A DNA stretch of 64,000 nucleotides from Hoeflea marina (GTDB lineage Bacteria; Pseudomonadota; Alphaproteobacteria; Rhizobiales; Rhizobiaceae), in NCBI RefSeq assembly GCF_003182275.1, contig NZ_QGTR01000002.1, forward strand, positions 434,001 through 498,000, given 5' to 3'. Position numbers and translations under genes: made by a program. Numbering within the stretch: position 1 is the first letter of the stretch; each line of letters opens with the position of its first letter. The notes beneath the pieces were generated by a model that had not been told where the DNA came from, did not search any database, and worked only from the letters and a program-made list of their open reading frames with translations. This document shows positions 10,082-24,067 of this stretch, one piece after another.

Positions 10082-10191
10082 CCGTTCCGGGCTTGGTCGC
10101 CTGAGCCGATGGGTCCCTGATGCGGATCATTTTCCTGCTGCATTGGCGGCGTAATGTGAAGCCACTGGAATCATTGTCTCAGGAGGTTGAA

Positions 10192-10641
10192 ATGTCTGGC
10201 ATTCGTTTGAAGCATAAGGGGTGGGTTGTCATCGCCGACGGCGGCAAGGCGCTGTTTCTCGTCAATGCCGGAACGCCTTCGGAGCCTGCCTTGCAGGTGG
10301 TCGGCGGCCTCGAGCAGAGAAACCCGTCCACCGCCGAGCAGGGTGTAGAACGGCCCGGCCGCCTGTCGGACGGCATGGGCGGCAGCCATCGCAGCGCGGT
10401 CCAGGAGACCGACTGGCACCAGTTGGCCAAGGAGGATTTTGCCCGCGACATCGCCTCCATGCTTGAAGAGCATGTCCAGGCCGGCAGGTTCGATCAGTTG
10501 ATCGTCGTTGCCCCGCCTTCGGTGCTGGGCGCGATGCGCAAGGAACTCAGCGATGCCGTCACCGGGAGGATCATTGCCGAAATAAACAAGGATTTGACGG
10601 GCCACCCCGTGGATAAGATCGAGAAATTGCTGTTTGATTGA
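10192..10641 (+). CDS. Host attachment-type protein (PF10116-like)
   Basis: A 149-residue soluble protein. The core WVVIADGGKALFLVN near the N terminus, the middle GGSHRSAVQETDWHQLAKEDFARDIA and the C-terminal FDQLIVVAPPSVLGAMRKEL...ITAEI-type segment match the family annotated as required for attachment to host cells, related to bacterial eRF1-like/Rossmann folds. The biochemical role is not established. ATG 10192 has a near-perfect ribosome site (aggaggttgaa). It is followed 3 bases later by ureE and may be co-transcribed with the urease accessory genes. Confidence 0.75.
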   Translation: MSGIRLKHKGWVVIADGGKALFLVNAGTPSEPALQVVGGLEQRNPSTAEQGVERPGRLSDGMGGSHRSAVQETDWHQLAKEDFARDIASMLEEHVQAGRFDQLIVVAPPSVLGAMRKELSDAVTGRIIAEINKDLTGHPVDKIEKLLFD

Positions 10642-10644
10642 CGG

Positions 10645-11199
10645 ATGCAGAGCAACCGACTGACCGCAGCATCCGTCACCCGCGATTTCCGCGATCCCGC
10701 CGCCACCATCACGCTTGACGAGTCCGCGCGTCACCGGCGACGGATGATGATGACGACGGACCGGACCGCCAACGGGTCGGTGATCGACTTTCTGCTCGAT
10801 CTTCCCGCGGCGCGGCTGTTGCGTCACGGCGACGGCCTGGTGCTCAATGACGGCCGCGTCATCGAGGTGCGCGCAGCGCCGGAGAGGCTGATGCAGGTGA
10901 CTGGCCGCGATCCGCGCCACCTGCTCACGCTGGCCTGGCAGATCGGCAACCGCCATCTGCCCGCCGAGATCTCCGGCACGGTCATCACGCTGCGCCGCGA
11001 TCACGTCATCCGCGCAATGCTCGAGGGCCTGGGCGCGACGGTCAGCGACATCGATGCGGCCTTCGATCCGGAGGGAGGCGCCTATGGCGGCCATGGCGGT
11101 CACGGTCATGGCCATGGGCAAGGCGGAGATCATCGCGCAGCCGAGCACGATCATGGCGACGCCGGGCACCGCCACGATCACGGGCATAGCCATGACTGA
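10645..11199 (+). CDS. ureE: Urease accessory nickel chaperone UreE
   Basis: A 184-residue nickel metallochaperone. The N-terminal part and the UreE C domain (LMQVTGRDPRHLLTLAWQIGNRHLPAEI, then DHVIRAMLEGLGATVSDIDAAFDPEGGAYG) are clear. The last about 37 residues form a His/Asp/Gly-rich tail with more than a dozen histidines (HGGHGHGHGQGG ... HRHDHGHSHD), which binds several nickel ions in other UreE proteins. ATG 10645 is 3 bases after the previous stop. The 3' end overlaps the next gene by 8 bases, so the accessory genes are tightly coupled. Confidence 0.93.
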   Translation: MQSNRLTAASVTRDFRDPAATITLDESARHRRRMMMTTDRTANGSVIDFLLDLPAARLLRHGDGLVLNDGRVIEVRAAPERLMQVTGRDPRHLLTLAWQIGNRHLPAEISGTVITLRRDHVIRAMLEGLGATVSDIDAAFDPEGGAYGGHGGHGHGHGQGGDHRAAEHDHGDAGHRHDHGHSHD

Positions 11200-11443
11200 G
11201 AGGTCGCCGCTTGACTGGCACAGCGCTCCGCTCGAGCCCTCGACGCGGATCGACGCCGCCTACCGCAACACCCAGAATGTGCGCCGGTTCTTCACGCGTG
11301 AGATCGGCGAGCATTTCCGGTTTGACCGCCCTTTCATGGCGTGGATGAAGAGCCATCGGGGATCGACGCTGGCGGAAGCGGCAGAACAATGGCGCCGGCA
11401 CCGGCAGGACGACAGCCAGGGCTCCGCGGAGAACGATGCTTGA
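11192..11443 (+). CDS. DUF6434-type small protein coupled to ureE
   Basis: An 83-residue protein: DWHSAPLEPSTRIDAAYRNT, NVRRFFTREIGEHFRFDRPF and AWMKSHRGSTLAEAAEQW. The DWHS...YRNTQNVRRFF..FDRPFMAWMK pattern corresponds, as I recall it, to DUF6434 domains often seen with SAP-like DNA-binding modules. ATG 11192 lies inside the last codons of ureE (atgactga), and the end overlaps the phosphatase-like gene by TTGA. Location in the ureE-ureF transcript suggests co-expression with urease maturation, but a direct role is unproven. Confidence 0.75.
   Translation: MTERSPLDWHSAPLEPSTRIDAAYRNTQNVRRFFTREIGEHFRFDRPFMAWMKSHRGSTLAEAAEQWRRHRQDDSQGSAENDA

Positions 11444-12415: not shown

Positions 12416-12419
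<4 letters not shown>
11757..12419 (+). CDS. ureF: Urease accessory protein UreF
   Basis: A 220-residue UreF. Family features are [20 protein letters not shown] at the N terminus, [41 protein letters not shown] and the C-terminal [17 protein letters not shown]. UreF acts with UreD and UreG in nickel insertion, proposed to gate the GTPase UreG. The ATG overlaps the phosphatase-like gene, and the TGA overlaps the ureG ATG (atga), so the genes are coupled. Cytoplasmic. Confidence 0.95.
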
Positions 12420-13048
<629 letters not shown>

Positions 13049-13049
13049 C

Positions 13050-13784
13050 TCAGGCCTGAACAAAATCCGGCAGGCTGTCGAAAGCCATCCGAAGCGCATT
13101 CGACCAGCCATCGGAGATCTGCCGGTAGTAGGGGTCGTTCTCGGTGATGCGCTTCTCATAGCCCTTCTTCACGCTGTCCTTCGCGTAGAACTGCATGTCG
13201 AGCGGCAGGCCGACAGAGAGGTTGGACCTGAGCGTGGAATCGAACGACACCAGCAGCAGCTTGGCCGCCTTCTCGAAGCTCATGTCCGGATCGTAGGCGC
13301 GCACCAGGATCGGCTTGCCGTATTTGTGCTCGCCGATCTGGAAGAACGGATTGTCGTCGGTGGCCTCGATGAAGTTGCCTTCGGGATAGATCATGAACAT
13401 CCGCATCGCGCCGCCGGCCACCTGGCCACCGAAGATGAAGGTGGCGCCGAAGGATGCCTCGCTCTGCAGTCCGCCGGCGGCCGAAGACTTGATCACCTCG
13501 CGCACCATCTCGCCGACCATCTGCGCCGCCAGAAACATCGACGGTGCTTCCATGATGCCGGTCTTGCGGTGCTCGGCCGCCTTGGTGTGCTCCTCGAGCA
13601 TGCTCACCACGGTCTGGGTTGTGGCGAGATTGCCCGCCGACATCAGCGTGAACAGCCGCTCGCCCGGCATTTCCCAGGTGTACATCTTCCGGAATGTGGA
13701 GATGTTGTCGACGCCTGCATTGGTTCGCGTGTCGGACATGAACACGAGGCCATGGTTGAGGCGAAGCCCGACGCAATAGGTCAT
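13050..13784 (-). CDS. Anbu (ancestral beta subunit) proteasome-like peptidase
   Basis: A 244-residue Ntn-hydrolase of the bacterial proteasome-related Anbu family. It begins MTYCVGLRLNHGLVFMSDTRTN, so removal of Met would expose Thr2 as the N-terminal nucleophile, and continues with GVDNISTFRKMY and LMSAGNLATTQTV, both typical. Anbu forms ring or helical assemblies in other bacteria; natural substrates are not known to me. It is the last gene of a minus-strand unit (ATP-grasp, alpha-E, transglutaminase, Anbu), 27 bases after the transglutaminase gene, a conserved neighbourhood pointing to a shared pathway of peptide ligation and cleavage. Confidence 0.9.
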   Translation of the reverse strand: MTYCVGLRLNHGLVFMSDTRTNAGVDNISTFRKMYTWEMPGERLFTLMSAGNLATTQTVVSMLEEHTKAAEHRKTGIMEAPSMFLAAQMVGEMVREVIKSSAAGGLQSEASFGATFIFGGQVAGGAMRMFMIYPEGNFIEATDDNPFFQIGEHKYGKPILVRAYDPDMSFEKAAKLLLVSFDSTLRSNLSVGLPLDMQFYAKDSVKKGYEKRITENDPYYRQISDGWSNALRMAFDSLPDFVQA

Positions 13785-13811
13785 GAAGAGGCGAATCCTT
13801 GTTAAGATTCC

Positions 13812-14606
13812 CTATTGCTCCACGGTGATGGAAACTGCAAGCGCTTCGTCGCCCTGACCGGTGCGAATACCGGAAATCGGGGCCGCGTCGCGGTAATCCA
13901 GCCCGTAGGCCAGATAGACGTAGCGGTCGTCCGGGCACATGTCGTTGGCCGGATCGAAGCCGACCCAGCCCAGCGACTCGATATAGGCCTGTGCCCAGGC
14001 ATGGCTGGCGACCTGCTCGACCTGGCCGTCCATCAGCAGATAGCCCGAGACATAGCGCGACGGGAAGCCGAGCAGCCTGGCGCCGGCCGCGAACACGTGG
14101 GCGTGGTCCTGGCACACGCCATGGCCGTCGGCGAGCGCTTCCTCCGCCAGCGTCTCGGTATGGGTGGCACCGGTGATATAGGTCATCTTGTCATGGATCG
14201 CGTTCATCAGCAGATGCAGTTGATCGAGGTCGCCGGTCTTGGGCAGCGTCCGCGCCAGTTCACGGATGTGCTTGCCGGGCTTGGTCAGGGCGGTTTCGCG
14301 CTGGTAGAGCCAGAGCGGCATGTAGCCGCGGTGGGCGCCCAGCACGCCCGCCTTGTCGTTGGTCTCGACAATGCCGGACGCGATCACCCGGATTGCCGAG
14401 GTGTTGCGGTGGGCGCTCACCAGTTCCACCAGGTTGTCGAACTGGTCGCGGTAGCGCGCCTCGATGCTGCCGCCTTCGACCGCGCTCTGCCAGGATTTGA
14501 CCGTCTGCAGCGAATTGTCCTGCGGCGTGAGCCGGAGCCGCTGCAGCGCATAGCTCACCGGCGCGCCATAGATGTAGTCCGTCGTGTGGGAAATCTTGAG
14601 CAACAT
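13812..14606 (-). CDS. Transglutaminase-like cysteine peptidase
   Basis: A 264-residue protein with an N-terminal bacterial transglutaminase-associated domain (MLLKISHTTDYIYGAPVSYA...) and a C-terminal transglutaminase core. The catalytic triad is complete: Cys165 (DGHGVCQDHAHVF), His202 (ASHAWAQAY) and Asp218 (GFDPAND). Such domains act as peptidases or amide transferases. No signal peptide. It lies 5 bases after the alpha-E gene and upstream of Anbu. In this context it probably works on the product of the ATP-grasp enzyme or its target protein (inference). Confidence 0.9.
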   Translation of the reverse strand: MLLKISHTTDYIYGAPVSYALQRLRLTPQDNSLQTVKSWQSAVEGGSIEARYRDQFDNLVELVSAHRNTSAIRVIASGIVETNDKAGVLGAHRGYMPLWLYQRETALTKPGKHIRELARTLPKTGDLDQLHLLMNAIHDKMTYITGATHTETLAEEALADGHGVCQDHAHVFAAGARLLGFPSRYVSGYLLMDGQVEQVASHAWAQAYIESLGWVGFDPANDMCPDDRYVYLAYGLDYRDAAPISGIRTGQGDEALAVSITVEQ

Positions 14607-14611
14607 GGATA

Positions 14612-15556
14612 TCAGGCCTGGTAAAACTGGTAGGCCTGCCCGATCTCGTTGCCGAGGCGGTTGTTCTGGCCGATGAAGTCTTCAAGAAACTCGTGCAGGC
14701 CGCTGTCGACGATCTGGCGGATTTCGCGATTGTCCAGTATGCCCTGGATCCGCGCCGCTGTCCGGTGCGCGTCATGGCTGCTGCCGTATTCGCGCGACAG
14801 GTAGCCCAGATTGGCGTTGATCTTGCTGTAGCAGTAGGCAAGCGAACGCGGCATCCGGCCATTCAGGATCAGGAAATCGGCGATGTTGACCGGATTGTAA
14901 TCCTCGTCATAGACCCATCCATAGGACCGGTGCGCCGACACCGAGCGAAGGATGGACTCCCACTGCACGTTGTCGAGCGAGGAGCCGACATAGGATGCCG
15001 CCGGCAGCAGCACGTAATACTTGACGTCGAGGATGCGGGCGGTGTTGTCGGCGCGTTCGATGAAGGTGCCGATGCGGGAGAAATTGTAGATCTCGTTCCT
15101 CAGCATGGTGCCGTGGAAGGCGCCGCGTATGAGCCCCGTTCGCCGCTTGATGATGTCGATGATCTCCGGCATGTGGCTTTCCGGGATCTTCCGGGCCAGC
15201 AGGGTCTTGAGTTCGAGATAGAACTCGTTGGTGGCTTCCCATGCCTCGCGCGTCAGCGCCGTCCGGACCATGCGGCCGTTGTTGCGGGCCGATTCAATGG
15301 CGGAATAGATGCTCGACGGGTTGGTCTTCTCGCGCAGCAGGTAATTGACCGCATCACCGGAGGTCACCACCGGGTGCAGGGCCTTGTAGGCGTCGATCAC
15401 TCCGGCGCTGCGCAGCACCGAATCCCATTCGTCCTCATGGCCGTGCATGCGGGTGAGCGACATGCGCAGCCCGGCGTCGATCAGGCGCGCGGTGTTTTCG
15501 GCGCGCTCGATGAAGCGGAACATCCAGAACAGTCCGTTGGCGGTTCTTCCCAGCAT
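14612..15556 (-). CDS. Alpha-E domain protein
   Basis: A 314-residue all-helical protein beginning MLGRTANGLFWMFRFIERAENTARLI, the characteristic alpha-E start, with a second similar helix FSRIGTFIERADNTARILDVK. Conserved Glu/Arg pairs (ERAE, ERAD) lie in the repeats. Alpha-E domains are found almost only beside circularly permuted ATP-grasp and transglutaminase genes. A role as scaffold or second catalytic component in peptide ligation has been proposed on context alone. The gap is 3 bases to the ATP-grasp gene and 5 to the transglutaminase gene. Confidence 0.9.
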   Translation of the reverse strand: MLGRTANGLFWMFRFIERAENTARLIDAGLRMSLTRMHGHEDEWDSVLRSAGVIDAYKALHPVVTSGDAVNYLLREKTNPSSIYSAIESARNNGRMVRTALTREAWEATNEFYLELKTLLARKIPESHMPEIIDIIKRRTGLIRGAFHGTMLRNEIYNFSRIGTFIERADNTARILDVKYYVLLPAASYVGSSLDNVQWESILRSVSAHRSYGWVYDEDYNPVNIADFLILNGRMPRSLAYCYSKINANLGYLSREYGSSHDAHRTAARIQGILDNREIRQIVDSGLHEFLEDFIGQNNRLGNEIGQAYQFYQA

Positions 15557-15559
15557 GGC

Positions 15560-16969
15560 CTAGTCCTCCAGCACCCAGGTATCCTTGGTGCCTCCGCCCT
15601 GGCTGGAGTTGACCACGAGTGAACCTTCTTTCAGGGCGACGCGCGTGAGCCCGCCTGGGATGATCTTGATGGTGTCGGACACCAGCACGAAGGGTCGAAG
15701 GTCCACATGCCGGGGCGCAATGCCCTTCTTGACCAGAATGGGGACGGTCGAAAGCGCCAGGGTCGGTTGCGCGATGTAGTTCGAGGGCCTCGCCTTCAGC
15801 TTGGCGGCGAAATCGGCACATTCGCGCTTGCTCGATGTCGGCCCGACCAGCATGCCGTAGCCGCCTGAGCCGTGCACCTCCTTGACCACAAGTTCCGGCA
15901 GGTGTTCGAGCACATATTTCAGGCTGTCTGCTTCCGAACAGCGCCAGGTCGGCACGTTTTCGAGCATCGCCTTGCGGCCGGTGTAGAACTCGACGATCTC
16001 CGGCATGTAGGAATAGATCGCCTTGTCATCGGCAATTCCGGTGCCCGGCGCATTGGCAATCGTGATGTTGCCGGCGCGGTAGACATCCATGATTCCCGGC
16101 ACGCCGAGCGTGGAGTCGGGACGGAAGGTCAGCGGATCGAGAAAGTCGTCGTCGACCCGGCGATACAGCACGTCGATCGCCTGATAGCCCTGGGTGGTGC
16201 GCATGCACACCTTGCCGTCCATCACCCGGAGGTCGGAGCCTTCGACGAGCTCGACACCCATCTGGTCGGCGAGATAGGCATGTTCGTAATAGGCCGAGTT
16301 GTAGATGCCCGGCGTCAGCACCGCCACCCGCGGCTTGCCCGAGCAGCCCGGCGGCGCCACGGCGGCGAGGCTCTGGCGCAGCAGCTTCGGGTAGTTCTCG
16401 ACCGGACGCACGCGGTTCTTGTTGAACAGCTCCGGGAACATCTGCATCATGGTTTCGCGGTTCTCGAGCATGTAGGAGACGCCCGATGGGGTGCGCGCAT
16501 TGTCCTCGAGCACGTAGAATTCGTTCTCGCCGGTGCGCACGATGTCGGTGCCGATGATGTGGGTGTAGACGCCGCCCGGCGGTCGCATGCCGATCATCTC
16601 CGGCAGGAACGCGGCATTCTGTTCGATCAGGTGGCGCGGGACGCGGCCTGCCTTGATGATTTCCTGCTTGTGGTAGATGTCGTCGAGAAAGGCGTTGAGC
16701 GCCATGACCCGCTGCTCGATGCCCTGCGCCAGCCTCCGCCATTCGGAACCCGAGATGATGCGTGGAACGATGTCGAACGGGATCACCCGTTCCGAAGCGT
16801 CTTCCTTGCCGTAGACTGCGAATGTGATGCCGGTTTTACGAAAGATCGCCTCAGCGTCGCGCGACTTCTTCAAGAGATCACTGGTCTTCTGTTGGGAATA
16901 CCAGTCAAAGTAGCCCTTGTAGGGCGGACGCGGACTGTTGTCCGCGGTGATCATTTCATCAAATGGCAA
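15560..16969 (-). CDS. Circularly permuted type 2 ATP-grasp protein
   Basis: About 469 residues, first gene of the Anbu-linked unit. Motifs include RVIPFDIVPRIISGSEW, GVYTHIIGTDIVRTGENEFYVLEDNARTPSG (split only for description; about residues 170-200), a PGIYNSAYYEHAYLA stretch and VVKEVHGSGGYGMLVGP near the C-terminal third. These belong to the predicted COOH-NH2 ligases with ATP-grasp fold. TTG 16969 was chosen as start because the ribosome site aggggagcaaaa precedes it and the product then starts PFDEM, as I recall in homologues. ATG 16993 and ATG 16990 are alternatives without a good ribosome site. Confidence 0.88.
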   Translation of the reverse strand: MPFDEMITADNSPRPPYKGYFDWYSQQKTSDLLKKSRDAEAIFRKTGITFAVYGKEDASERVIPFDIVPRIISGSEWRRLAQGIEQRVMALNAFLDDIYHKQEIIKAGRVPRHLIEQNAAFLPEMIGMRPPGGVYTHIIGTDIVRTGENEFYVLEDNARTPSGVSYMLENRETMMQMFPELFNKNRVRPVENYPKLLRQSLAAVAPPGCSGKPRVAVLTPGIYNSAYYEHAYLADQMGVELVEGSDLRVMDGKVCMRTTQGYQAIDVLYRRVDDDFLDPLTFRPDSTLGVPGIMDVYRAGNITIANAPGTGIADDKAIYSYMPEIVEFYTGRKAMLENVPTWRCSEADSLKYVLEHLPELVVKEVHGSGGYGMLVGPTSSKRECADFAAKLKARPSNYIAQPTLALSTVPILVKKGIAPRHVDLRPFVLVSDTIKIIPGGLTRVALKEGSLVVNSSQGGGTKDTWVLED

Positions 16970-17294
16970 TTTTGCTCCCCTTTTGTCCATCATATGAGCG
17001 CAACAACGATGAGAATGCAAGATCCATGCGCGATCGCCGCCGTGGAGCTGCAAGGTCGGCTTTCCTGTGTGCTTGTTGCTTATTCAACACATCAGGCGCT
17101 TAAGCGTTCCCTTGAAAGCGGATCTCTTTCCTCGGCGCGGCGAAGCGGCGGCCAAGGCGGCCGGCCCGCATGAGATCGGTCTTGCCTGATGCACCGCGCG
17201 GATGTGAGGAGTGCCGGCGGTGGTTGGCGCTTGCGCCGTGGCAATGGCCGCGTTATCGCTCCGCGCGCCCTTCTTCCGCTGGCAGGACCTTCCC
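16970..17294. other. Divergent intergenic region between the ATP-grasp and DMT transporter genes
   Basis: About 325 bases with no convincing gene. It must contain the promoter of the minus-strand Anbu-linked operon and that of the plus-strand EamA transporter. The only structural detail I see is a short palindrome cgcttaagcg around 17097-17106. If the ATP-grasp gene starts at ATG 16993 the region is 24 bases shorter. An in-frame extension of the transporter back to 17211 is open but lacks a ribosome site. Confidence 0.5.
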
Positions 17295-18205: not shown

Positions 18206-19804
18206 TCAGAAATCGGTCGGCACGCCGCCTTCGGCCTTGCGCCGGGCGACGAACGCATCGAGTTCCTCTTCGATGGCCAGGTCGAGCGGCGGCTGCTGGT
18301 AGCTGGCGAGCGTTTCCTTGAACACCCGGTTGGCGTGGTCGAAGGTCGTCGGCTGGCCGGCGAGGCTCCAGCTCTCGAAATTGCGCCAGTCCGACAGGAT
18401 CGGCGAATAGAACGCCGTCTCGTAGCGGTCGAGCGTGTGCTGGGTGCCGAAATAGTGGCCGCCGGGGCCGACTTCGCGGATCGCGTCCATGGCAAGCGCC
18501 TCTTCGCTGACATCGAGCGGCGCGAGGAATTCGGCCACCATCTGCAGCATGTCGACATCAAGGATGAACTTCTCGAACGAGGCCGTCAGCCCTCCCTCGG
18601 TCCAGCCCGCGGCGTGCATGACGAAATTGCCGCCGCCCTGCACGACGGCCCACAGCGACATCATCGATTCATAGGCGGCCTGGGCGTCGAGCGTGTTGGC
18701 CGCGCAGGTGTTCGAGGTGCGGTAGGGCACGCCGTAGCGTCGGGCCAGCTGGCCACCGGCAATCACCGCCTTCATGTATTCGGGCGTGCCGAAGGCCGGG
18801 GCGCCGGATTTCATGTCGACATTGGAGGTGAAGCCGCCATACATCACCGGAGAGCCGGGGCGAACCATCTGGGTAAAGGCGATGCCCGCCAGTGCCTCGG
18901 CGTTCTGCTGCACCAGCGCGCCCGCCACGGTCACCGGCGCCATGGCGCCCGCCAGCGTGAACGGCGTGACCACGACGACCTGATTGCGTGAGGACATCTC
19001 GATGATGCCCTGCAGCATCGGGTTGTCGTAGCGCAGCGGCGAGGAGGCGTTGATGATGGTGAACAGCGACGGCTCGAGCTCCATCTGCTCGGCCGTGATG
19101 CCGCGGCCGATCCGGGCGATTTCCAGCGCATCGAGATTGCGCTCCCTGCCCAGCGAATAGGCATGGTAGGGCTTGTCGGTCAGCTTGATGAAGTCCGACA
19201 GGCAGTCGAGATGCCGGATGGAGGCATGAATGTCGGTGGGCTCCACAGGATAGCCGCCCGACAGATGGATGATGTCGTAGGATTGCGCCAGCCTGAGCAG
19301 GTTGCGGAAATCCTCCTGGGTACCGGTGCGGCGGCCGTGGTCGCGATCCGAGCAGTAGGGTGCGGAGGCCACCTGGGCGAAGGCCATGTTGCGGCCGCCC
19401 ATCCGGACGTTGCGCTCCGGATTGCGGGCATGCAGCGTGAACGGACCGGGGGCGTGGCCCACCATCTCCATCACCAGCGCCCGATCGAGGCGGACCCGCT
19501 CGACGCCGGGCCGGACATCGGCGCCGGCGGCCTTGAGCCGCTCGCGGGCTTCCGGCAGCATGAAGTCCATGCCGGTTTCCTCAAGCACGGTCAGCGACGC
19601 CTCGTGAATGGCGTCAATTCCTTCGGGCGACAGCAGCAGCGACGGTTCCTGCGTGTTCAGGATCGACCGATAGCGCAGCGTGACCGGCGCCTTGCGCCCC
19701 TTGCCGCGGTCGCCGCCGCGTCCGCCCGTGGTCCGGCGCCGCCGTTCAGGGTCGCCGGAGGTGTTCTCGATAGCGGCCGGCAGGATCTCGTCCATTGAGC
19801 TCAT
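18206..19804 (-). CDS. Trimethylamine methyltransferase (MttB) family protein, non-pyrrolysine type
   Basis: A 532-residue MttB-superfamily protein. The N-terminal about 50 residues are basic and Gly/Arg-rich, then the TIM-barrel region begins RYRSILNTQEPSLLLSPEGID. Later blocks include FAQVASAPYCSDRDHGRRTG, GGFTSNVDMKSGAPAFGTPE and LDRYETAFYSPILSDW. There is no in-frame amber codon, so it lacks pyrrolysine and is of the type that demethylates quaternary amines such as glycine betaine via a corrinoid protein. No corrinoid protein or reductive activator is adjacent, so the substrate is open. ATG 19804 has the ribosome site aaaaggacacc. A longer open frame reaches 19924. Confidence 0.85.
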   Translation of the reverse strand: MSSMDEILPAAIENTSGDPERRRRTTGGRGGDRGKGRKAPVTLRYRSILNTQEPSLLLSPEGIDAIHEASLTVLEETGMDFMLPEARERLKAAGADVRPGVERVRLDRALVMEMVGHAPGPFTLHARNPERNVRMGGRNMAFAQVASAPYCSDRDHGRRTGTQEDFRNLLRLAQSYDIIHLSGGYPVEPTDIHASIRHLDCLSDFIKLTDKPYHAYSLGRERNLDALEIARIGRGITAEQMELEPSLFTIINASSPLRYDNPMLQGIIEMSSRNQVVVVTPFTLAGAMAPVTVAGALVQQNAEALAGIAFTQMVRPGSPVMYGGFTSNVDMKSGAPAFGTPEYMKAVIAGGQLARRYGVPYRTSNTCAANTLDAQAAYESMMSLWAVVQGGGNFVMHAAGWTEGGLTASFEKFILDVDMLQMVAEFLAPLDVSEEALAMDAIREVGPGGHYFGTQHTLDRYETAFYSPILSDWRNFESWSLAGQPTTFDHANRVFKETLASYQQPPLDLAIEEELDAFVARRKAEGGVPTDF

Positions 19805-20074
19805 TCGGGGTGTCCTTTTCCCTGTTCGCCTGCCAGCCTGGCCCTGCATGAGCCCTCGGCGGCGGGTCTTCTCTGATCGGACGCTATGCCGGAGTCTGCG
19901 GGGCCGCAAGCCGTCTTGCGTCATTCGCCGTCGTGATCCCGTGCGATATTTCCGTCGTTCCGGATTTGCGCCCGAAAGACGCGCCCGACCCGGTTCTCAC
20001 ATGGTTAACCGTTTCTTTAAATGTAACGGGCAGGGTGGACCGGCGGAAATCAAGATTCAATTCGGACGGATGAC

Positions 20075-23000
20075 ATGGGGCAGGGCAGGCACATGATGGA
20101 TGACAGTGACAGCGCCCTCGCCGACGCCTGCACCGCCGTCAGCCGCGACACGCAGCCGGCCTTCATCAAGGACTCCGAACTGCGCTACTATGCTGTCAAC
20201 AAGGCCTATGCTGAACTGTGGAATCTGGACCCGGCCGATCTGATCGGCTCCAAGAGCCAGCAGAGCTTCGAACCGGGCGAACAGAACGACCGCGACGAGA
20301 AGGAACGCCGCACGCTTGTCTTCGGCAAGGATCAGGTCGCGCTGTTTTCCCACCCGGCTAAGGACGGCCGCTACCGGATCCGCATCCGCCGCGAACGCCA
20401 GGCCAATGGTAAACTCTTCATCGTCGGCCATTTCGAGACCATCGCCGGAGTGCGGTTCGAGACCGGCGCGCCGGCCCAGTCAGGCGGGTCGGCCTTTGAT
20501 CCGGACAATGCCGATGTCGTGCTGCGCGGTGACTACGATCTGCTCAAGTCGGCGATCGAGCAGGCCAGGCAGCCCATGGGCGTGTTTGACCGCCAGGGCC
20601 GGCTGGTCGCCGCAAGCGCCGGCTACAGGGCTGCGGCCGGTCCTTGGGAGGAGCAGCACCTGCCCTGCGGCGGTCTCATCCGCCGCGCCGCCGACCGGGT
20701 CTCGGTTACCAGTCCGGCGCAGCCGGCCGCTGTGGCCGGGCCGGCCGGCCGCGTCACCGCGCGGTTGCGGGAAGTGTTCGACAGCATCGACATCGGCGTT
20801 GTCATGTACGACCCCGATGACACGCTCATCTATGTGAATCCAGCCATGCAGGCCCTCAGCGACGGCGCCTACCGGCTTGAACCCGGCATGACGCTCCGGA
20901 CGCTGCTGGAGGCATCCTGGCCGGCAAAGAGCGATGCGACGCGTGAGGAATGGGTGGCCAAGCGGACCAGGGCCCAGCATGTCTACAATGAAGCCAGTAT
21001 CGAGCAGATCTCCAATGGTCGCTGGATCAGGCTGGTCAATCACAGGCTTGCGGATGGCTCGATCCTTGGCCTGCGCATGGATGTCACCGATCTCAAGCAG
21101 CGCGAGATCCTGCTCGAGGAGCAGATTGTCGAGAACAGCCTGTACCGGGCGATCCTCGATGACCTGCCGATCACCACCTTCGTCAAGGATGAGAATTTCC
21201 AGTATGTCTACGTCAACAGGTCGCACGGCAGGCTGACCGGTCTCTCCCGCGAAGAGGTGATCGGCAAGGACGACTTTGCGCTCTTCGGGGACCAGGGCCT
21301 GGCGCTGCGGGCCGCCGACAAGGAGGTCATGGACGGCAAGGGCGACCGCGAGGTCGAAGTGCCGCTGTCCACGCCAGACGGCGAGACGCTGACGCTTCTC
21401 GACCACAAGACCTGTTTCATCGATCCGAAGGGCCAGCGGTTTCTGCTGGGCTCGACCCTCGACATCACGGCGCTGAAGTGGCGCGAGAATGAGGTCTTCG
21501 AAGCCCGGCGTATTGCCGAACTGCACCGCTCCGACCTGGAGAGCACGCTCGACGCCATGCAGATGGGCGTGGTCGTCGTCGACCGCGATCTCAGCGTCGA
21601 ACTGGCAAACACCGCCTTTTTCCGGATCTGGAAGCTTCAGCCGCGCGACGACGTGATCGGCAAGCCGTTCCGGCAGTTCATCGACGTCAACCGTCACAAC
21701 GAGATCTACGCCGTCGCCCAGGAGGAGTGGGAAGACTATGTCGAGTCACGGCTTGCGGAGATATCGAAGGGTTATGTCGAGCCGCGCGAGTTCTCGCGCG
21801 CCGACGGACGGACGGTGATCTATTCCGTGCGCGCCTTGTCGGACGGCAAGCGGTTGGTGTCCTATTACGACATCACCGAGCTCAAGCAGCGCGAGCGCGA
21901 GCTCAATCAGGCGCGCAGTGAAGTCGAGCAGGCCGCGGTGCTGATGCATGACGCGGCAGATGCGATGGCGCAGGGCCTTTTCATCTTCAGTCACGGCGAG
22001 GTCCAGTTCTTCAACCAGGCGTTCCTCGACATGGTTGGAATTTCCGGCGACATCGTCCGCATCGGCTCATCGACGGAAAGCCTGTTTCACTTCTTTGCCG
22101 AACGCGGCGAATACGGGGAGGGCGATGAAGCCATCGCCGTCCGCGACCGGATCATCGACTGGCACCGCAACCGCATACCGCACACCCTGGAACGGCAATC
22201 GCGGACCGGCCGGTGGCTTCGCATCGATGCCAAGCCGGGCGCTGATGAAACCATGATCGTGACCTACACGGACATCACCGAAGCGAAGAACCGCGAGGCC
22301 GAACTGCAGCAGTTGCTGGGCAAGGCGGAAATCGCCGATCGCGCCAAGTCCGAATTCCTCGCCAATATGAGCCACGAGATCCGCACGCCGATGAACGGCG
22401 TGCTGGGCATGGCCGAGCTCCTGTCGCGCACGGAGCTCGACACCCGCCAGCGGACGTTCACCGACATCATCGTCAAGTCCGGCAACGCGCTGCTGTCCAT
22501 CATCAACGATATTCTCGACTTCTCCAAGATCGACGCGGGGCAGATGGTGCTCGATGACGCGCCCTTCGACATCCGCGAGACGATCGAGGATGTGGCAACG
22601 CTCGTGTCCGCGCGCGCCGCCGAAAAGGATGTGGAACTGATCGTCAGGATCGATCCGTCGCTGACCTCGCGCGTCGTCGGCGACGTCGGTCGGGTGCGCC
22701 AGATCGTCACCAACCTCGTCGGCAATGCGATCAAGTTCACCGAGGTCGGCCATGTCCTGCTCGAGCTGAGCGTGGAACCCAGGCCCAATGCCTTTCTGGC
22801 GCTGACATTGCGGGTCAAGGACACCGGCATCGGAATTCCGGCCGAAAAGCTCGAGGCTGTCTTCGACAAGTTCTCGCAGGTGGACAACTCCTCCACCCGC
22901 CGGCACGAAGGCACCGGTCTCGGACTGGCCATCACCGCGCGGCTGGTCGAGCTGATGAACGGAACGATCACCGCCGAGAGCGAACCCGGCGACGGGTCGC

Positions 23001-24067
23001 TCTTCACGGTGCAGCTGGAAATGCCCACGGACAGGACCGGCGCCAAGCCGAAGGCCGCGCCGATCGACGTGACCGGCGCCCGCGTGCTTGTCATCGACGA
23101 CAACAAGATCAATCGGGCCATCCTCATCGAGCAGCTGTCGGCTTGGGGATTCGACGCCTGTGCCGCCGTGTCCGGCGAGGAGGGCGAACAGGTGCTCGAC
23201 GCAGCGGCGCGGCATGACATCGCCGTGGATGCGGTCATCCTCGATTATCACATGCCCGACCGGGACGGGCTGATGGTCGCCCGCTCCATCCGCACCAGAT
23301 TTTCCGCCGCCAGCCTGCCGATCATCATGCTGACCTCGATGGACATCAGATCGGCGGAGCCCGGCCTGGCGCAGATCGACGTCCAGGCGACCATGATGAA
23401 GCCCGCGCGCTCGTCACTGCTGCTTGAAACCCTTGTCGACGTGCTGCAGCGGTCCGACCGCAGACATCCGCCGCTGCGGCCGGCGCCGCCATCCGCCGGC
23501 GGCTCCGCGCCGCGGGTCATTGGCATGTCCGCACAGGCGGGTGCGGTCGATGCGCTGCCCGGCACGGCGGCGGTTTCCCCGGCGGCAGTGCCTGCATCCG
23601 ATGCGGGGCGGGCTTCGCCGCAATCGACCGCCGGGATCCGGGTGCCGGGGGCGTCCGCCGTGCGCCTCGACGTGCTGGTGGCGGAGGACAATGAGGTCAA
23701 CCAGATCGTCTTCTCGCAGATCCTCGAGGAACTGGGAGTGACCTACCGGATTGTCGGCAACGGCGAGCAGGCAGTCTCCGCGTGGCGCAGCGATCGCCCG
23801 GCGCTCATCCTCATGGATGTCTCCATGCCGGTGAAGAACGGTCACCAGGCCGCCGCCGAGATACGGCAGGCGGAAACCCTGGATGCCGGCCTTGGCCGAA
23901 CCCCGGTCATCGGTGTCACCGCCCACGCGCTCACCGGGGATCGCGAGCGCTGCCTGGAGGCCGGCATGGATGATTATCTGTCCAAGCCGATCAGTCCGGA
24001 GAAGCTGGAAGCCAAGATCCGCGAATGGCTGCCGGCCGATATCGCGGCCCGGATCGCCTCCGTCTGA
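20075..24067 (+). CDS. Multi-PAS hybrid sensor histidine kinase with two receiver domains
   Basis: A 1330-residue soluble kinase with no obvious transmembrane segment. Approximate order: N-terminal PAS-like (25-125), PAS (235-345), PAS (353-470), PAS (488-610), PAS (623-740), HisKA with phospho-acceptor His767 (FLANMSHEIRTPMNG), HATPase (about 870-985; N box NLVGNAIKFT, DTGIGIP, GTGLGLAI), receiver 1 (about 1002-1125, Asp1057 in VILDYHMPDRDG), a Pro/Ala-rich linker, and receiver 2 (about 1196-1320, Asp1248 in ILMDVSMPVKNG). It probably senses a cytosolic signal. No partner regulator lies next to it. ATG 20075 is used; in-frame ATGs at 20093 and 20096 are possible. Confidence 0.93.
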   Translation: MGQGRHMMDDSDSALADACTAVSRDTQPAFIKDSELRYYAVNKAYAELWNLDPADLIGSKSQQSFEPGEQNDRDEKERRTLVFGKDQVALFSHPAKDGRYRIRIRRERQANGKLFIVGHFETIAGVRFETGAPAQSGGSAFDPDNADVVLRGDYDLLKSAIEQARQPMGVFDRQGRLVAASAGYRAAAGPWEEQHLPCGGLIRRAADRVSVTSPAQPAAVAGPAGRVTARLREVFDSIDIGVVMYDPDDTLIYVNPAMQALSDGAYRLEPGMTLRTLLEASWPAKSDATREEWVAKRTRAQHVYNEASIEQISNGRWIRLVNHRLADGSILGLRMDVTDLKQREILLEEQIVENSLYRAILDDLPITTFVKDENFQYVYVNRSHGRLTGLSREEVIGKDDFALFGDQGLALRAADKEVMDGKGDREVEVPLSTPDGETLTLLDHKTCFIDPKGQRFLLGSTLDITALKWRENEVFEARRIAELHRSDLESTLDAMQMGVVVVDRDLSVELANTAFFRIWKLQPRDDVIGKPFRQFIDVNRHNEIYAVAQEEWEDYVESRLAEISKGYVEPREFSRADGRTVIYSVRALSDGKRLVSYYDITELKQRERELNQARSEVEQAAVLMHDAADAMAQGLFIFSHGEVQFFNQAFLDMVGISGDIVRIGSSTESLFHFFAERGEYGEGDEAIAVRDRIIDWHRNRIPHTLERQSRTGRWLRIDAKPGADETMIVTYTDITEAKNREAELQQLLGKAEIADRAKSEFLANMSHEIRTPMNGVLGMAELLSRTELDTRQRTFTDIIVKSGNALLSIINDILDFSKIDAGQMVLDDAPFDIRETIEDVATLVSARAAEKDVELIVRIDPSLTSRVVGDVGRVRQIVTNLVGNAIKFTEVGHVLLELSVEPRPNAFLALTLRVKDTGIGIPAEKLEAVFDKFSQVDNSSTRRHEGTGLGLAITARLVELMNGTITAESEPGDGSLFTVQLEMPTDRTGAKPKAAPIDVTGARVLVIDDNKINRAILIEQLSAWGFDACAAVSGEEGEQVLDAAARHDIAVDAVILDYHMPDRDGLMVARSIRTRFSAASLPIIMLTSMDIRSAEPGLAQIDVQATMMKPARSSLLLETLVDVLQRSDRRHPPLRPAPPSAGGSAPRVIGMSAQAGAVDALPGTAAVSPAAVPASDAGRASPQSTAGIRVPGASAVRLDVLVAEDNEVNQIVFSQILEELGVTYRIVGNGEQAVSAWRSDRPALILMDVSMPVKNGHQAAAEIRQAETLDAGLGRTPVIGVTAHALTGDRERCLEAGMDDYLSKPISPEKLEAKIREWLPADIAARIASV

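Follow-up and report, generated by a model that had tools for sequence, protein, structure and literature searches.

The Anbu operon of Hoeflea marina beside urease genes: a possible ATP-dependent amide cycle of nitrogen shortage

What the proteasome-like hydrolase Anbu does has been a question ever since it received its name in 2008 (PMC5666114); in evolution it is placed close to where the proteasome arose. A four-gene Anbu operon has been described (Iyer et al. 2009 and Valas and Bourne 2008, cited in PMC5666114 and PMC6376114), and as far as the excerpts of the two citing papers go, it holds the same families in the same order as the unit treated here. In this study, a stretch of 64,000 nucleotides (nt) from Hoeflea marina (contig NZ_QGTR01000002.1, positions 434,001-498,000; hereafter the window) was analysed, on the minus strand of which the genes for an ATP-grasp protein, an Alpha-E protein, a transglutaminase-like protein and Anbu follow each other in this order, with intergenic gaps of 3, 5 and 27 nt. 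Families, order and strand all fit, and the unit is the already published operon, without essential difference; its particular features are the urease genes next to it and the absence of the sigma-54 element that many relatives have. We propose that it encodes an ATP-dependent amide ligase, the product of which is cleaved by either of two hydrolases, and that it serves in nitrogen shortage, a reading to which we give a probability of about 0.45.

The first gene (15560-16969) encodes a circularly permuted ATP-grasp ligase of 469 amino acids (aa) from a TTG start (CP_ATPgrasp_2, E 6e-168; CP_ATPgrasp_1, E 2.5e-149). It is followed by the genes for an all-helical Alpha-E protein of 314 aa with two homologous halves (14612-15556; PF04168, E 3.7e-92), a transglutaminase-like cysteine hydrolase of 264 aa with the triad Cys165-His202-Asp218 (13812-14606; PF01841 (Transglut_core), E 2e-22; PF08379 (Bact_transglu_N), E 1e-18) and Anbu, a proteasome-like N-terminal nucleophile (Ntn) hydrolase of 244 aa with Thr2, Asp18 and Lys33 (13050-13784; Proteasome family, E 2e-8). 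Open reading frames, families and alignments confirmed the strand, the gaps and the intact signature residues noted in an earlier sequence-only reading of the window, and its view of a real, recurrent unit without assigned substrate was borne out by the families and by the gene order elsewhere. Among 199 Pseudomonadota genomes, 119 carry Alpha-E, 82 Anbu and 83 ureG (counts across genomes and loci are not corrected for relatedness, here and below). Chance as an explanation for the co-occurrence of the four families was tested and failed: Alpha-E was found in 81 of the 82 genomes with Anbu versus 38 of the 117 without it (Fisher p ~1e-24). Eighty regions were compared, namely those of 79 of the 82 non-window Anbu matches (G026, G053 and G062 excluded) and the Alpha-E region of G016, and 54 of the 79 Anbu loci, drawn from 18 of 28 family codes, hold the other three genes on the Anbu strand no more than 5 kb upstream of it.

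Within the unit, the two putative joining proteins stay together. The ATP-grasp gene lies within 1 kb of Alpha-E in all 66 sampled loci in which Alpha-E was detected, 65 of them chosen by Anbu. Among 80 named loci, which are those closest to the Alpha-E of the window, it stands upstream of Alpha-E in 79, and a contig end cuts the remaining one. The hydrolases are less constant. A whole-genome search of 21 genomes without Anbu at the locus (two of these loci, L140 and L211, were too short to tell, and genome completeness was not stated) found no Anbu anywhere in 19, while all five positive controls were found; the other two, a Caballeronia and a sphingomonad metagenome-assembled genome (MAG), gave an Anbu hit. 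The 19 Anbu-less genomes, from Rhizobium, Agrobacterium, Sinorhizobium, Shinella, Rhizobiales and Burkholderia, keep ATP-grasp, Alpha-E and transglutaminase. Conversely, in the three Aureimonas genomes searched, where ATP-grasp, Alpha-E and Anbu are all present, there are transglutaminase paralogues of just 31-40% identity, in contrast to the orthologues of 55-69% identity in five of five comparison genomes. G101 and G031 have Anbu within 6 kb of Alpha-E and no Bact_transglu_N domain genome-wide (the genome-wide search covered this domain and not PF01841), and G150 has a Bact_transglu_N match below the cut-off only. Both hydrolases are lacking nearby in none of the 80 named loci and in one of the 66 sampled loci (G016), although other places in that genome encode a transglutaminase-N protein and a distant Anbu match; the pattern is thus a ligase pair with at least one hydrolase. 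Judged from gene content, Anbu is dispensable and the transglutaminase is dispensable too, which suggests that ATP-grasp and Alpha-E form a fixed core from which each hydrolase can be lost.

In the mechanism that we envisage, ATP-grasp and Alpha-E would form one two-subunit ligase, in which ATP-grasp would activate a carboxylate and Alpha-E, with its two helical halves, would hold or present the acceptor. The product would probably not be a protein tag but a small conjugate of a peptide or an amine, and either of the two unrelated hydrolases, the transglutaminase-fold enzyme or Anbu, might cleave it, so that one of the two would suffice. The cycle would be induced together with urea use and other functions that scavenge nitrogen. 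Support comes from the linkage of ATP-grasp and Alpha-E in 66 of 66 loci, their fusion in a second system, the single losses of hydrolases and the nitrogen data.

The signature residues of the four proteins are intact. The ATP-grasp protein of the window retains E155, N157, R159, K316, K363 and N454, which we take to be ATP- and Mg-binding residues, as do 41 of 41 stand-alone rows, some proteins being counted twice; its solved relative is 3n6x (E 2e-198). In 56 aligned transglutaminases including that of the window, Cys165 is kept in 55 and His202 and Asp218 in all. The Anbu of the window has a Thr directly after the start Met, together with the Asp and Lys of the Ntn active site, and across 79 aligned proteins (the distant match L082 excluded) Thr2 is kept in 78 and Asp18 and Lys33 in 79. 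Solved Anbu chains match it with E values down to 1e-92 (5loy, 5nyj, 5nyf, 5nyw and 5lox), the best being the designed Anbu-1 consensus 5loy in a comparison set that held no Anbu-2 chain. In Alpha-E, E17-R18 and E167-R168-A169-D170 do not vary across an alignment of 62 proteins, 61 of them from the 80 named loci and one from the window, and an AlphaFold2 model built from 62 sequences is all helices (predicted local distance difference test, pLDDT, 89.6; predicted template modelling score, pTM, 0.89). Residues 15-97 align with the second half from ~165 (hhalign probability 97.6, E 3.5e-12), and by this profile match Alpha-E is an internal duplication; no solved relative was found by sequence with E up to 1, and a search for fold matches gave none that convinced. 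Its closest named relative is from a Hoeflea MAG (77% identity). The Alpha-E proteins of five Caballeronia/Burkholderia loci (L155, L163-L165 and L173) are of rhizobial type, 56-62% identical to that of the window, which suggests horizontal transfer. A further relative, 31.7% identical over 97% of the protein, lies in MT835738.1 (16860-17732), an unannotated fecal 'Bacteriophage sp.' record that is possibly mislabelled bacterial DNA.

A second system occurs ~82 kb from the unit in the same 5.3-Mb genome (G000:C2, ~358.6-365.4 kb; L003 2645-9397) and comprises a large transglutaminase of 1141 aa, an ATP-grasp/Alpha-E fusion and a third transglutaminase. In ten fused proteins from this and other loci, E155, N157, R159, K316 and N454 are kept in none, K363 in two and R425 in all ten. 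Since the catalytic residues invariant in the stand-alone rows are lost, the fused protein is read as a putative pseudo-ligase. In the Burkholderia loci L163-L165 both systems share one cluster, in which the large transglutaminase and the fusion come directly after the first system.

In the window, the unit stands tail to tail with ureG (12416-13048, plus strand; TIGR00101, E 1.3e-95), which is context outside the unit, with 1 nt between ureG and Anbu. Of the genus, 17 other genomes were compared; an ATP-grasp match and ureG are both present in 15 of them, and each of these 15 has ureG on the opposite strand, some 2.5 kb beyond the ATP-grasp gene, an arrangement shared by the window and by a genome of a sister genus (G228); the 1-nt spacing itself is not conserved (120 nt in L132). 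In another locus (L004, genome G047) ureD begins 2 nt downstream of Anbu, in the same orientation, and is followed by urease gamma, beta and alpha, two open reading frames, ureF and ureG. Alpha-E occurs in 65 of 83 genomes with ureG versus 54 of 116 without it (odds ratio 4.1, p 9e-6). Among the matches listed, ureG was found by eye within 25 kb of Alpha-E in at least 7 genomes from 5 lineages, where about 1.1 were expected on the rough assumption of ~1.6 copies per genome (P 0.006 for five lineages and 0.03 for four, the window excluded); in the other 58 of the 65 genomes with both, this closeness was not seen among the matches listed. A correlation of these domains with urea metabolism in metagenomes has been reported in the excerpted text of PMC3597751. 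Among the urease accessory genes of the window lie genes for a baeRF family 12/Host_attach protein (10120-10641) and a DUF6434 protein (11054-11443), both on the plus strand.

Nitrogen control has been recorded for relatives of the unit. The excerpts available describe strong NtrC dependence of the Burkholderia cenocepacia genes (PMC5491218), and in Pseudomonas putida higher expression of PP_2685 and PP_2688 on nitrate than on ammonium (PMC8050072), PP2685-2687 among the genes listed as up (PMC3325844) and an 11- to 15-fold rise of PP_2686-2688 in the wild type (PMC7801951); a proteasome-type protease, COG3484, is named in a sigma-54 analysis (PMC12316311), and a Caulobacter NtrC is reported to be without the sigma-54 contact motif (PMC10274813). 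The sequence-only reading knew of no assigned phenotype, and this statement needs the qualifier that, as far as these excerpts go, expression responds to nitrogen (PMC5491218, PMC7801951, PMC8050072). Upstream of ATP-grasp, a sigma-54 -24/-12 dyad (TGGC-N7-TTGC) was found by dyad search in 24 of 42 sequences outside the group of the window versus 16 of 678 control genes. With a sigma-54 promoter matrix and a threshold of 12, 22 of 66 other loci scored at or above it (21 of them outside that group), versus 3.2% of 968 control genes and none of 66 reverse strands. E. coli-type NtrC palindromes (at least 10 of 12 letters) occur in 7 of the 42 sequences outside the group and in 1.8% of controls. 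The genus of the window shares instead a sigma-70-like promoter, a block conserved in an alignment of 17 loci from this and the sister genus; in the window it is read from the sequence as a probable promoter at 16992-17020 (minus strand), with TTGCAT at 17020-17015, a 17-nt spacer and TCATAT at 16997-16992. Downstream of it, the TTG start at 16969 is supported by the putative ribosome-binding site GGGGAG (16975-16980, minus strand) ahead of it and by an alignment in which all 16 other loci, 15 from this genus and 1 from the sister genus, carry GTG or TTG at this position; the GGAGGA site of Alpha-E sits within the 3' end of the ATP-grasp gene, the intergenic gaps all being short.

A de novo search yielded another palindrome, TGCCT-N7-AGGCA. 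Both half-sites are complete ahead of the unit in 7 of the 25 sequences from the group of the window, five of these 7 being from a single genus, and in 3 of 42 others; neither the window nor its genus has it. In some relatives, where it precedes the unit, it may be a candidate NtrC-type site. It has 11 exact places in 14 genomes, 5 of them upstream of the unit, in genomes picked knowing that five carry it, and if one mismatch is allowed it is also found ahead of a dus/nifR3-like gene and close to genes for glutamine synthetase, these genes being named by eye. The assignment is weakened by the control, as the reversed pattern has 13 places genome-wide versus 11. The palindrome TGCCTAAAAATTAGGCA also precedes a uvrC-like gene in L088 and L099 (two genomes of one family), which would be unexplained for an NtrC site. 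In one locus a stand-alone Lrp/AsnC ligand-binding domain is encoded just upstream of the unit (L161 8038-8274), and small genes like it occupy the same place in 10 further named loci, mostly Mesorhizobium; the domain scan covered that of L161 only.

A number of observations weigh against an amide cycle of nitrogen shortage. No ligase product or substrate has been seen so far. In published work, the ATP-grasp protein of a relative releases phosphate in an ATP-dependent manner that is not stimulated by Gln, Glu or Anbu, Anbu showed no activity on proteasome substrates, and in Pa-Anbu, epoxomicin and MG132 attach to Thr1, a finding that the authors of that work count in favour of protein degradation. 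The window is without a sigma-54 element (best score 5.5), and among the other loci of its group 1 of 24 reaches the threshold and 0 of 25 sequences have an E. coli-type NtrC palindrome, thus nitrogen control here is unproven. In the excerpt of PMC7801951, the Anbu gene PP_2685 is up just 1.1-fold in the wild type, which goes against co-induction of Anbu, and PP_2686-2688 are up 14- to 20-fold in an rpoN mutant, where urtA-D rise too, which speaks against sigma-54 as the only switch; our figure rests on the nitrogen response and not on sigma-54. Finally, Aureimonas retains the transglutaminases of the second system, which could stand in for the missing one, and the survey of the transglutaminase does not extend to the 38 sampled genomes that have Alpha-E and lack Anbu.

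Three other explanations have to be considered. It has been proposed, in work cited in the excerpts of PMC5666114 and PMC6376114, that proteins are marked by the ligase with a short peptide or an amino acid and that Anbu, helped by the transglutaminase, degrades them or takes the tag off again, akin to Pup or ubiquitin. The Thr nucleophile, split-ring assembly and inhibitor binding of Pa-Anbu agree with this, and the Anbu authors read nitrogen limitation as a condition of higher protein turnover. We consider it improbable: reported pull-downs gave no specific complex among the proteins of the operon, no AAA+ gene, HslU-type partner included, lies in the unit or among the neighbours scanned. 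The same genes include no Pup-like protein, Pup-type ligase or AAA+ unfoldase, frames below 50 aa and the rest of the genome being outside that search. The sequence-only reading saw no small peptide gene in the unit, and around it no conserved fifth gene was seen, within the same limits on short frames and on the rest of the genome, so that a small peptide gene may have escaped. As the essence of the system, the peptide tag trimmed by a proteasome-like ring that it thought possible is not supported, in view of the genome-wide loss of Anbu in 19 of the 21 genomes that keep the other genes; direct support for a peptide tag was not found.

The unit could also work as a small-molecule conjugase and amidase of the glutathionylspermidine type, in which an amine, e.g. 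a polyamine or an amino acid, would be stored or masked as an amide and released by the hydrolases. The layout of ligase and cysteine hydrolase agrees with it, 3n6x is labelled a putative glutathionylspermidine synthase, and 12 named loci (9 named Mesorhizobium) have an aromatic-amino-acid-decarboxylase-like gene after Anbu in the same orientation. However, that label is a putative annotation by the depositors only, the decarboxylase is confined to this group of loci, and none of 10 recurrent neighbours scanned beside the unit was identified as a polyamine gene, and we regard this explanation as unlikely. Least probable, and very doubtful, is a lack of any shared pathway, in which the four proteins would travel as a nitrogen-regulated cassette of separate scavenging enzymes. 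Each hydrolase is lost singly in some genomes, the four-gene order around Anbu is found in none of 8 loci of family f29, and Anbu is not co-induced in one P. putida data set (excerpt of PMC7801951); on the other hand, the order is kept in 54 of 79 loci and 18 of 28 family codes, and ATP-grasp and Alpha-E are inseparable at the 1-kb scale in all 66 loci and fused in the paralogous system.

Some further genes were observed. The decarboxylase-like gene lies at 12530-14026 in L157, in 11 further named loci and at 10824-12269 in L006, and thus in Mesorhizobium and a few relatives. In the window, beyond an EamA transporter upstream of the unit, there is an MttB-family methyltransferase-like gene (18206-19924, minus strand; PF06253, E 1e-203), which scores below the NCBIfam cut-off for the pyrrolysine trimethylamine (TMA) enzyme, and at 20075-24067 (plus strand) a gene for a very large hybrid histidine kinase that combines several PAS domains with two receiver domains.

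While the unit itself is known, the fixed pair with losable hydrolases, the pseudo-ligase, the Alpha-E duplication, the split in promoters and the urease adjacency may be new; a literature search that did not cover the defining paper of 2009 found no report of hydrolase interchange, the pseudo-ligase or the Alpha-E duplication, which may nonetheless be in print. The pattern of presence and absence renders the role of Anbu testable, and the nitrogen data and the urease linkage point to the condition. A wider view, rather unlikely as a whole, is that ATP-grasp and Alpha-E are the core of a widespread nitrogen-limitation amide cycle with interchangeable hydrolases, that Anbu, in which many see the forerunner of the proteasome, cleaves a small ligase-made conjugate instead of degrading proteins, and that the paired pseudo-ligase system of the same genomes is a regulator or carrier for it.

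Glutathionylspermidine synthetase/amidase is an ATP-grasp-fold amide ligase coupled to a cysteine amidase. The unit resembles it in joining an ATP-grasp-fold ligase with a cysteine hydrolase, and differs in its other amidase, its two hydrolases and its extra Alpha-E subunit. RimK/RimB and RloABC of Pseudomonas, of which the excerpts of PMC12239564 mention neither Alpha-E nor Anbu, likewise pair a peptidase with an ATP-grasp protein, and RloB has a transglutaminase fold; unlike the unit, they use an aspartic peptidase and a membrane-bound inactive transglutaminase. In the cluster I35_5080-83 of B. cenocepacia, for which the excerpt of PMC5491218 lists no Anbu, the same three core families as in the window occur together, under strong NtrC dependence.

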